A stretch of DNA of 60,692 nucleotides from Archaeoglobaceae archaeon (GTDB lineage: Archaea > Halobacteriota > Archaeoglobi > Archaeoglobales > Archaeoglobaceae): the NCBI GenBank assembly GCA_015523335.1, contig WAKM01000039.1, positions 1 to 60,692 of the forward strand. Reading direction: 5' to 3'. A model generated the notes under the pieces. The model was not told the DNA's origin. It saw only the letters and a list, made by a program, of their open reading frames with translations, and did no database searches. Shown piece by piece: positions 5,851-13,512 of the stretch; position 1 is the stretch's first letter; every line of letters begins with the position of its first letter. Made by a program: the position numbers and the translations under genes.

Positions 5851-6828
5851 ATGGCTAAGGGGCTGGATGTCGGAACTATGAATATTGTTTGTGCGGAGAT
5901 GGAGGGAGAAAACGTAGTTTTCGTCCAGCAGAGAAACGCCTTCTTGGAATTGGACTACAGCGACCTTACGAAGATGATGCTCGACAACGCGAACGTTCAG
6001 TATGTCGTTAAGGGCGACAAGATATACGTACTCGGCGATGATGCGATGAAATTCGCTACGGTTTTCAGAAAGAGCACGAGGAGACCGATGAAGACTGGAA
6101 TTCTCAGTCCAGAGGAGAAGGAGGCGGTTCCGATAATAAAGCTCATCGTCGAAAAGGTTTTGGGAGAACCGAACTACGAGAACGAAGTAGTCTGCATATC
6201 GTCCCCAGCGAATCCGATCGACTCCGACATCGAAACTACATACCACAGAAAGACCATGGAAGCTTTGGTTAAGAAGTTGGGATACCGCCCGTTTACGATC
6301 GACGAAGGTCTTGCGATCATCTATTCGGAGCTCGCCGATAACAGCTTCACGGGAATTGGCATCAGCTTTGGAGCGGGAATGACGAATGTCACGGCGGCTT
6401 ACTTCGCCGCACCTATCGTTTCGTTCAGCATTGCCAGAGGAGGAGATTGGATCGACGAGAATGCGGCGAAGGCAACTGGAACTCCGAAGGAGCAGGTTTG
6501 CGCGATCAAGGAATCGAACTTCGAGCTGAAGTATGAGGTCGAGCTTGGAAGCGTTGAGGGAGCCTTAGCGATTTACTACGACTACCTGATCACGTATGTA
6601 GTCGAGAATCTGAAGAGGAAGTTGACGGAAGTTACACCTCCGCAAGTAGATTTCCCGGTTGTGTTAGCCGGAGGAACTTCGAAGCCGAGAGGGTTCAAGA
6701 GGGTATTCGAGGAGAAGATTTCGCAGGTTGGATTGCCAGTTGATGTTTCCCAGATCAGAATGGCTAAGGATCCGCTCTTCAGCGTCGCAAGAGGTTGTTT
6801 GATAGCGGCTAAGACGAAAGAGGAGTAG
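5851..6828 (+). CDS. Archaeal actin/MreB/Hsp70-fold ATPase
   Basis: This 325-residue protein has the actin-superfamily nucleotide motifs: phosphate-1 GLDVGTMN at 4-11, phosphate-2 GIGISFGAGMTNV near 168-180, and the adenosine motif VLAGGTSKPRGF near 270-281. A connect-1-like segment TIDEGLAIIYSEL lies near 150. Length and layout fit the MreB/ParM/crenactin range rather than full Hsp70, which needs a substrate domain. The gene is coupled to an upstream membrane protein. A role in a membrane-attached filament (shape, polarity or division) is inference. It could be related to the haloarchaeal actin homologues, which I cannot test here. Confidence 0.75.
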   Translation: MAKGLDVGTMNIVCAEMEGENVVFVQQRNAFLELDYSDLTKMMLDNANVQYVVKGDKIYVLGDDAMKFATVFRKSTRRPMKTGILSPEEKEAVPIIKLIVEKVLGEPNYENEVVCISSPANPIDSDIETTYHRKTMEALVKKLGYRPFTIDEGLAIIYSELADNSFTGIGISFGAGMTNVTAAYFAAPIVSFSIARGGDWIDENAAKATGTPKEQVCAIKESNFELKYEVELGSVEGALAIYYDYLITYVVENLKRKLTEVTPPQVDFPVVLAGGTSKPRGFKRVFEEKISQVGLPVDVSQIRMAKDPLFSVARGCLIAAKTKEE

Positions 6829-8696: not shown

Positions 8697-9017
8697 ATGA
8701 AGCTAAAGGGTAAAGGTTTCATCGATTTGGGAACGGAGAAAATCTACGAGATCCTGAGAAATCCAAACTTCAGTTTGGCTTTTGCCGAAATTCGTGAGTC
8801 TAAGCTTCATCTCCACAGAAGATCCACGGAACTATACTTGGTATGCGACGGCGAAGGTGTTCTGTTTCTGAATAAGTCCAAAATCAGGATTCGTAAAGGA
8901 GACGTGATTAAGGTCTCTCCGAACACACCCCACAAAGTCGTTTCTAAGGGTTGGGTAAAGTTGTTCGTCGTAAGCTACCCACCTTGGAACAAGGGCGATC
9001 ACATCCTGCTGGAATGA
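8697..9017 (+). CDS. Small single-domain cupin
   Basis: A 106-residue cupin. The metal-binding pattern is visible: His38 and His40 plus Glu45 in LHLHRRSTE, then His79 in PNTPHKV. The glycine turns DGEG and RKGD and the double-stranded beta-helix pattern fit. Its substrate is unknown; relatives include mannose-6-phosphate isomerase-like and sensor cupins. It is coupled to the AMA ATPase (5-base gap). Its stop codon directly abuts the 3' end of a C/D box sRNA on the opposite strand. Confidence 0.8.
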   Translation: MKLKGKGFIDLGTEKIYEILRNPNFSLAFAEIRESKLHLHRRSTELYLVCDGEGVLFLNKSKIRIRKGDVIKVSPNTPHKVVSKGWVKLFVVSYPPWNKGDHILLE

Positions 9018-9073
9018 TCAGCCGACATCCCTGTCATCATCTTTTATCAGACCCGATGGGTTTCATCACCCGA
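9013..9073 (-). ncRNA. C/D box guide sRNA (cluster copy 1)
   Basis: On the minus strand the order is C box GTGATGA (9063-9069), a 12-base guide, D' box CTGA (9047-9050), C' box ATGATGA (9034-9040), a 12-base guide (9022-9033), and D box CTGA (9018-9021). Box identity and the 12-base spacing from each C to the next D are textbook for archaeal 2'-O-methylation guides. The terminal stem is weak. Targets (rRNA or tRNA) were not determined. Confidence 0.85.
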
Positions 9074-9100
9074 TCGAAGTTCGATTTAATGAAATAAAAA

Positions 9101-9159
9101 GTTTATCAGTCCCGCGCACATCATCACCTCTCAGTCCGGGTCGATCTCATCATCCAAAC
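9101..9159 (-). ncRNA. C/D box guide sRNA (cluster copy 2)
   Basis: Minus-strand order: stem GTTT, C box ATGATGA (9147-9153), a 12-base guide, D' box CTGA (9131-9134), C' box GTGATGA (9121-9127), an 11-base guide (9110-9120), D box CTGA (9106-9109), stem AAAC. The flanking GTTT/AAAC pair closes the terminal helix. Both boxes are canonical, making this one of the clearest members of the cluster. Confidence 0.9.
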
Positions 9160-9188
9160 GTTTTTAAGTATCGACGGTTATTTAATCT

Positions 9189-9246
9189 GGCGGATGATGA
9201 CGTCCGGCCCTCCTGAATAATGAGGAGACGTTTTAGGTCTGACGCC
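9189..9246 (+). ncRNA. C/D box guide sRNA (cluster copy 3)
   Basis: Plus strand: stem GGCG (9189-9192), C box ATGATGA (9194-9200), a 12-base guide, D' box CTGA (9213-9216), a weaker C' box (AATGAG near 9219-9224), a second guide of about 13 bases, D box CTGA (9239-9242), stem CGCC (9243-9246). A TATA-like TTATTTAAT lies just upstream (about 9178-9186) and may start transcription of copies 3 and 4 together. Confidence 0.9.
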
Positions 9247-9300
9247 GATGATGACCTTGCCCTTCTCTGAATTGTGACGATACCCAGGGCACGCTGAGGC
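9243..9300 (+). ncRNA. C/D box guide sRNA (cluster copy 4)
   Basis: Plus strand: stem GCC, C box ATGATGA (9248-9254), a 12-base guide (9255-9266), D' box CTGA (9267-9270), C' box GTGACGA (9274-9280), a 13-base guide (9281-9293), D box CTGA (9294-9297), stem GGC. Its 5' stem uses the same bases as the 3' stem of copy 3, so the two cannot both keep the helix in one precursor. They must be processed alternatively or share bases. Confidence 0.88.
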
Positions 9301-9337
9301 AAAAGCCTTTTATGAAAATTTGTCTCAAAATGACTGC

Positions 9338-9393
9338 GCCCGATGAAGAAAAAACAGTGCTGAACAGTGATGAATTTGCCGATTGCCGAGGGC
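9338..9393 (+). ncRNA. Probable C/D box guide sRNA (cluster copy 5, variant D box)
   Basis: Plus strand: stem GCCC (9338-9341), C box core GATGA (9342-9346), a guide of about 13 bases, D' box CTGA (9360-9363), C' box GTGATGA (9367-9373), a 12-base guide, then CCGA (9386-9389) where CTGA is expected, and stem GGGC (9390-9393). Spacing and terminal stem fit well, but the C box is short and the D box is a variant, so this copy is less certain. Confidence 0.68.
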
Positions 9394-9400
9394 TCAATGG

Positions 9401-9436
9401 TAAAATTTATATCGGTATCGATATATCGGTATCGAT
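9401..9436 (+). promoter_or_regulatory. TATA box plus tandem 12-base repeat operator of the padR operon
   Basis: AAATTTATAT gives a TATA element at about 9403-9412. Overlapping and following it, the 12-mer ATATCGGTATCG occurs twice (9409-9420 and 9423-9434), 14 bases apart centre to centre. It ends two bases before the PadR start codon at 9437. The element contains TATCGATA palindromes. The position over the transcription and translation start suggests autorepression by the PadR protein it precedes. Confidence 0.75.
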
Positions 9437-9955
9437 ATGGAAAAGATTCCGCGCGGTGTTCTGAAGTATCTAATTCTAAAGCTGTTGGACGAAAAACCCG
9501 ATACCGGTTACGGTATAATAGTCAGAATTCGTGAGAAGACTGGATTCTGGAAACCGTCAACCGGATCAATATATCCGCTCCTCGATGGTCTGGTAACCAA
9601 CGGTTTCGTAGAAAAATGCGAGCTTGACAACAGGTGCGTTTACAGGTTAACGGAAAAGGGAAAGGAAGCTTTAAAGGAGACGAGCAAAATAAAAATGGAA
9701 CTGCTCGAAAAGATAAAGAACGCGCACATAGTCTTGGCGAAGATTTTCGACGATCCCGACTTGATGATGGTTGCCGAGAGAATCGACGATAAAATTAAGA
9801 GGGGAATCCCCATATGCGCACTGATTCCGCGCGATTTTATAGATACCCTCGAAAAACTGTATCGATCTAACGTGGATAGAGATGCTGTTCTGGCTATACT
9901 CGAAGAAACTAGAAGAAAACTTGAAGATTTACTAAGAGAGGTCGATGAGAAATGA
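9437..9955 (+). CDS. PadR-family transcriptional regulator
   Basis: A 172-residue regulator. The N-terminal PadR winged helix shows the family signature LKYLILKLLDEKPDTGYGI followed by GSIYPLLDGLVTNGFVE, and the wing is CVYRLTEKGKEAL. The C-terminal helices (about 85-172) would form the dimer. PadR proteins usually repress neighbouring efflux genes and release on binding a hydrophobic ligand. A repeat operator overlaps its start codon, and it overlaps the next gene by ATGA. The operon goes on to a surface protein and a drug exporter, which fits toxicant-responsive control. Confidence 0.88.
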   Translation: MEKIPRGVLKYLILKLLDEKPDTGYGIIVRIREKTGFWKPSTGSIYPLLDGLVTNGFVEKCELDNRCVYRLTEKGKEALKETSKIKMELLEKIKNAHIVLAKIFDDPDLMMVAERIDDKIKRGIPICALIPRDFIDTLEKLYRSNVDRDAVLAILEETRRKLEDLLREVDEK

Positions 9956-13450: not shown

Positions 13451-13512
13451 TTTCAGGGCTGGAACTACTCATCATCTTTAAATCAGATACGGCCGCATTC
13501 ATCATCCGTAAG
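13446..13512 (-). ncRNA. C/D box guide sRNA (isolated copy 6)
   Basis: Minus strand: stem TTAC/CTTA flank, C box ATGATGA (13499-13505), a 12-base guide, D' box CTGA (13483-13486), C' box ATGATGA (13469-13475), a 12-base guide (13457-13468), D box CTGA (13453-13456), and a TAAG/CTTA terminal pairing (13446-13449 with 13509-13512). All four boxes are perfect. It overlaps the last codons of the convergent MFS gene. The rest of the gap to 13673 shows only a weak GGTAG/CTACC hairpin and the pgk promoter. Confidence 0.9.

Follow-up and report, generated by a model that had tools for sequence, protein, structure and literature searches.

We find that five small RNA genes, packed into ~380 bases on both strands of an Archaeoglobaceae genome, very probably constitute one compact locus of ordinary archaeal box C/D sRNAs that guides 2'-O-methylation of rRNA, with predicted targets in 23S rRNA for sRNAs B, D, and E and in 16S rRNA for sRNA C, and for which we propose promoters and an assembly history. 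The RNAs are of a well-known type; what is unusual is only their tight, divergent packing, which is conserved throughout the genus. The window, by which we mean the whole 60,692-nucleotide stretch of DNA that was analyzed, comes from a 1.4-Mb genome (contig C39), and the cluster lies in it between a cupin gene and a padR gene.

Archaeal box C/D sRNAs carry boxes C (RUGAUGA), D', C', and D (CUGA) in that order, with guides of 9 to 15 nt and a short spacer between D' and C'. Both strands were scanned for the pattern C-guide-D'-spacer-C'-guide-D. The scan returned five units at 9018-9389, listed here with the flanking genes:

8697-9017, + strand: cupin gene, flanking the cluster
9018-9069, - strand: sRNA B; C box GTGATGA, D' guide AACCCATCGGGT, D' box CTGA, C' box ATGATGA, D guide CAGGGATGTCGG, D box CTGA
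9106-9153, - strand: sRNA A; four perfect boxes, guides GATCGACCCGGA and TGTGCGCGGGA
9194-9242, + strand: sRNA C; guides CGTCCGGCCCTC and GACGTTTTAGGT, C' box ATGAGGA
9248-9297, + strand: sRNA D; guides CCTTGCCCTTCT and TACCCAGGGCACG, C' box GTGACGA
9343-9389, + strand: sRNA E; C box ATGAAGA, guide AAAAACAGTG, D' box CTGA, C' box GTGATGA, guide ATTTGCCGATTG, D box CCGA
9437-9955, + strand: padR gene, flanking the cluster

An earlier note on this DNA had read five C/D guide RNAs on both strands of the cupin-padR interval, and the scan and its controls bear this out, including the orientation of two units leftward (B and A) and three rightward (C, D, and E). In 20 dinucleotide (Markov) randomizations of the whole window, no unit had fewer than three box mismatches, and units with exactly three averaged 0.4 per window. 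Some details of the earlier description needed correction. Only A and B, not four units, have the full canonical set of boxes; C and D carry one C' mismatch each, and E carries two (in C and D). The guides measure 10 to 13 nt rather than 11 to 13, and the central gap, previously placed at 9159-9189, runs from C box to C box over 40 nt (9154-9193). The matching terminal stems ascribed to most units are visible as short stems in C (GGCG/CGCC), D (GCC/GGC), E (GCCC/GGGC), and, offset, A (GUUU/AAAC), with a weak one in B; the same CGCC bases serve as the 3' stem half of C and the 5' stem half of D. Minimum-energy RNA folds of the units were uninformative, as expected because k-turns need L7Ae. From C to D, the sRNAs span 47 to 52 nt, as in archaeal box C/D sRNAs, and the D end of sRNA B abuts the cupin stop codon, tail to tail.

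At the Rfam gathering threshold, none of the five units was reported, and no sRNA of the window reached the cutoff. Below that threshold, all five match archaeal C/D families over their full length, C/D-type families top the match list for each, and the best E value per unit lies between 1e-7 and 0.002. The best match among the five is that of sRNA A to snoPyro_CD (42.5 bits against a cutoff of 45; E = 1.2e-7); the others, likewise below the gathering score, are sRNA D to snoPyro_CD (E = 2.1e-6), C to sR3 (E = 2.4e-5), B to sR5 (E = 1.8e-4), and E to sR14 (E = 0.0018). With archaeal C/D sRNAs (Rfam families snoPyro_CD, RF00095; sR3, RF01133; sR5, RF01304; sR14, RF01145; sR23, RF01138) the cluster has in common box order and spacing, dual guides, predicted rRNA targets, and full-length covariance-model matches. 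It differs from these families in its scores below gathering, in guides and targets that belong to its own lineage, and in the altered C/D box pair of E. C/D sRNAs are under-annotated in archaea (PMC7994747).

Targets were predicted by the D+5 rule, in which the modified nucleotide faces the guide base five positions upstream of box D or D'. Each pairing was scored as Watson-Crick pairs minus 0.5 per G-U and minus 2 per mismatch, and the stretch had to include guide position 5. We used the genome's own 16S rRNA and the 23S rRNA of a congener, G004, because the 23S gene is absent from the genome's own assembly and from three of its four congeners. Sites are numbered on these two sequences, and the E. 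coli equivalents are approximate, taken from pairwise alignment. Seven of the 10 guides scored at least 9, against a mean of 1.0 and a maximum of 3 of 10 in 100 shuffled sets, and the summed guide score of the cluster lies 7.1 SD above the shuffles (z = 7.1). Genome-wide, 56% of 70 guides from 35 candidate units scored at least 9, versus 11% when shuffled and 7% when reversed.

The predicted sites for sRNA B are 23S C2122 (10 bp; ~E. coli 2020) and G2150 (9 bp; ~E. coli 2048), and those for sRNA D are 23S G1426 (11 bp; ~E. coli 1303) and C1749 (11 bp; ~E. coli 1623). The D guide of sRNA C is predicted to address 16S A542 (11 bp, one G-U; ~E. coli A572), and its D' guide is ambiguous between 16S G471 (10 bp, one G-U) and 23S 623. 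For sRNA E, the D guide would direct modification of 23S C1799 (11 bp; ~E. coli 1672), and the D' guide pairs weakly with 23S G1893 (7 bp only; ~E. coli 1776). Individually weak against shuffles are the D' guides of B (P = 0.08), C (P = 0.35), and E (P = 0.05). The paired targets are 28 nt apart for B, 71 nt for C (if 16S G471), and 94 nt for E, in line with the spacing reported for dual guides (PMC7994747). The guides of sRNA A had no score above shuffles against the genome's own 16S and the G004 23S, and we found no convincing rRNA or tRNA target for it. The best tRNA candidate, 8 bp in a T arm, was unconvincing, and a 9-bp match of its D' guide to G005 23S at position 1158 was set aside, as the homologous G004 site is one base off (C for T). 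Aligning guides with rRNA and tRNA was the check that the earlier note had proposed, and for B, C, D, and E it gave rRNA complementarity far above the shuffled level. The further expectation that each RNA aims at a different site is supported for B, D, and E, with distinct predicted 23S sites, and for C, with a predicted 16S site; A has no convincing target. The five RNAs almost certainly steer rRNA methylation.

In archaeal C/D RNPs, L7Ae recognizes the k-turns, Nop5-fibrillarin joins the complex, and 2'-O-methylation falls on the target base that faces guide position 5 (PMC7994747). Boxes, spacing, conservation, and complementarity are directly observed in the DNA, as are the Nop5 and fibrillarin genes, which lie side by side in the same genome (Nop5-fibrillarin operon). 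We infer that the sRNAs of the cluster are transcribed, assembled into RNPs, and used for methylation. A k-turn (C/D) and a further k-turn or k-loop (C'/D') would form in each transcript; the folded sRNAs would bind L7Ae and Nop5-fibrillarin, and the RNP would place a 2'-O-methyl group on the rRNA nucleotide that the D+5 rule picks out.

Every genome of the genus, five in all, carries the five units. G001 shows 98% identity across the locus. Between the window and G004, the sRNA bodies are 86.5% identical and the spacers 54.3% (Fisher P = 5e-12); in G004 the locus is intact, but its neighbors are the AAA gene and genes for ribosomal proteins rather than cupin and padR. G004 lacks the cupin gene (L114 345-505), of which only a short stretch resembling the 3' end seems to be left beside sRNA B. 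In G003, there are ~300 extra bp between D and E, with a small open reading frame (ORF) weakly like a ribbon-helix-helix protein (L011/L119). G002 has a UPF0175 gene and a further ORF between B and A (L113 594-1144), as well as ~600 bp of AT-rich DNA between C and D. The extra DNA in these two genomes always sits between sRNA units and never inside one. It is possible that the UPF0175 gene with its ORF and the ribbon-helix-helix-like ORF are toxin-antitoxin-type insertions.

Across the sRNAs of the genome, the most AT-rich bin ahead of the C box is the one that begins at -30, with an AT content of 0.82. Around the cluster, candidate promoter elements, with positions relative to the C box, are as follows:

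9093-9101, - strand: candidate TATA box CTTTTTATT for sRNA B, -32 to -24
9154-9193, no strand: central gap with two AT-rich boxes in opposite orientation, a proposed bidirectional promoter; 40 nt kept in congeners
9160-9168, + strand: candidate TATA box GTTTTTAAG for the C-D unit, -34 to -26
9178-9186, - strand: candidate TATA box ATTAAATAA for sRNA A, -33 to -25
9307-9314, + strand: candidate TATA box CTTTTATG for sRNA E, -36 to -29

The central gap of 40 bp probably holds two back-to-back promoters, one for A to the left and one for C-D to the right, and B and E each appear to have a promoter of their own. sRNA D starts 5 nt after C, and with so short a spacer the two probably share a transcript. 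In G003, in which E is set apart from D by other DNA, CTTTTATG remains immediately upstream of E. A second divergent sRNA pair in the genome (C52) has the same design with a 38-bp gap, and a divergent pair in G004 (C9) has a gap of 41 bp. A gap of ~40 bp would be what two back-to-back promoters need if they are not to overlap the sRNAs. The suggestion in the earlier note that shared promoters account for the packing is supported, as shared or back-to-back promoters, by sequence only, through AT-rich boxes near -30 in both directions of the gap. Promoter motifs are reported for only 20% of genes in six model archaea (PMC7994747); unlike that picture, the cluster has AT-rich TATA-like boxes near most units.

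Beyond the genus, the five sRNAs have different distributions. In genus g12 (G015 and G050), B and D occur alone as a divergent pair, 37 to 38 bp apart, beside a radical SAM gene. sRNA E occurs without the other four beside it in genera g10, g11, and g12. sRNA A is absent from the other 50 genomes of the family, apart from one two-mismatch match in G009. For sRNA C, there are near-matches to the D guide in other genera, and none of those examined lies in a C/D unit. Because g12 has B and D alone at this spacing, A and C were probably nested between them later; alternatively, A and C may have been lost in g12. We infer an assembly order in which the B/D divergent pair came first, A and C were nested between, and E was added at the right end. 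A tentative generalization, which we hold to be somewhat less probable than its opposite, is that this is a bidirectional cluster growing by nesting from a B/D pair with a shared promoter region of ~40 bp, and that the genus keeps all five genes under selection, so that 16S and 23S guides are produced side by side.

Local duplication, the other explanation offered in the earlier note, might instead account for the packing: one or two founder sRNAs would have been copied in tandem or inverted, and the guides of the copies would have diverged afterward. The tight packing and the mirror-image nesting of B-A and C-D would fit such an origin, and guides are known to evolve fast (PMC7994747), so that similarity could have been erased. 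However, no guide pair in the cluster has 7 or more of 12 bases in common, and genome-wide guide-guide similarity is near the shuffled level; with guides this unrelated, local duplication is unsupported. The occurrence of E alone in g10, g11, and g12 also indicates that E was not made by duplication here. We consider this origin unlikely.

A still smaller probability attaches to the idea that some units, most of all E and A, are pseudogenes in decay or boxes that arose by chance. It draws on the two imperfect boxes of E and on the lack of a convincing rRNA or tRNA target for A, but the number of units expected by chance at such box quality is zero, the D guide of E, which four genera retain, pairs with 23S over 11 bp, and the boxes and guide cores of A are preserved in every one of the five genomes of the genus. 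The 3b:3n pair of the k-turn, in which the fourth base of the box C UGAUGA faces the second base of box D, is usually U:U in archaeal C/D RNAs (PMC5689011). In E and its orthologues (L116, L117, L118, L132, and L133), it is U:U in g10, g11, and G050, G:U in G015, and A:C in the window's genus, and the orthologues in g10, g11, and g12 carry a canonical D box. Both sides of the pair have changed in the window's genus, and the A:C change may be a compensation. The D' guide of E differs in genus g11. The orthologue in G014 and G053 (L118 and L133) keeps the D guide but has a different, CCCTCCCCTAG-like D' guide that matches elsewhere in 23S (10 bp plus one G-U; G005 23S at 1850).

TIGR arrays of TIGR-Tas systems, in which tandem C/D-like guides on one strand, with identical edge and loop repeats and DNA targets, serve an adjacent Nop-domain nuclease, Tas (PMC12045711), resemble the cluster in their dual guides flanked by box C/D motifs, but that reading has a negligible probability and was rejected, as the cluster genes lie on both strands without repeated edge or loop repeats, the flanks hold AAA/PRS2, cupin, and PadR genes with no adjoining Nop-domain (Tas) gene, and the guides match rRNA rather than DNA targets.

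With the five units read as ordinary C/D sRNA genes, their arrangement can be set beside known ones. C/D sRNA genes have been described in clusters of two or three (PMC7994747); C and D resemble these as adjacent, likely polycistronic genes, whereas the whole cluster differs in its five genes, which occupy both strands on either side of a central gap of 40 bp. It is an enlarged form of a known arrangement, with familiar parts and a familiar presumed mechanism, and larger published clusters may exist. Other sRNA groups in the genome (C10, C19, C41, C49, and C52) are tandem, convergent (gaps of 2 and 11 nt), or divergent (38 nt). The statement in the earlier note that archaeal C/D sRNAs are usually scattered is partly right for this genome, but small groups recur, one other divergent pair among them. 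For an Archaeoglobaceae lineage represented here solely by metagenome-assembled genomes, the locus supplies a definite list of predicted rRNA methylation sites. The series of arrangements, from B/D pair to nested five-gene cluster to split cluster, makes the evolution of sRNA gene order testable, along with that of compact bidirectional archaeal promoters.

Other features of the window were seen in passing. A sixth C/D sRNA with perfect boxes lies at 13453-13505 on the - strand, directly after an MFS transporter gene, and its guides pair with 16S 869 (10 bp) and 16S 40 (11 bp, one G-U). At 5851-6828, there is a gene for an actin-like protein that matches the Pfam family Volactin (E = 2e-135). 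Directly before padR, at 9402-9436, the palindromic motif TATATCGGTATCGATATATCGGTATCGATATGG is repeated and is likely a PadR operator; a similar motif precedes padR in G002 too, despite the different neighbors there.
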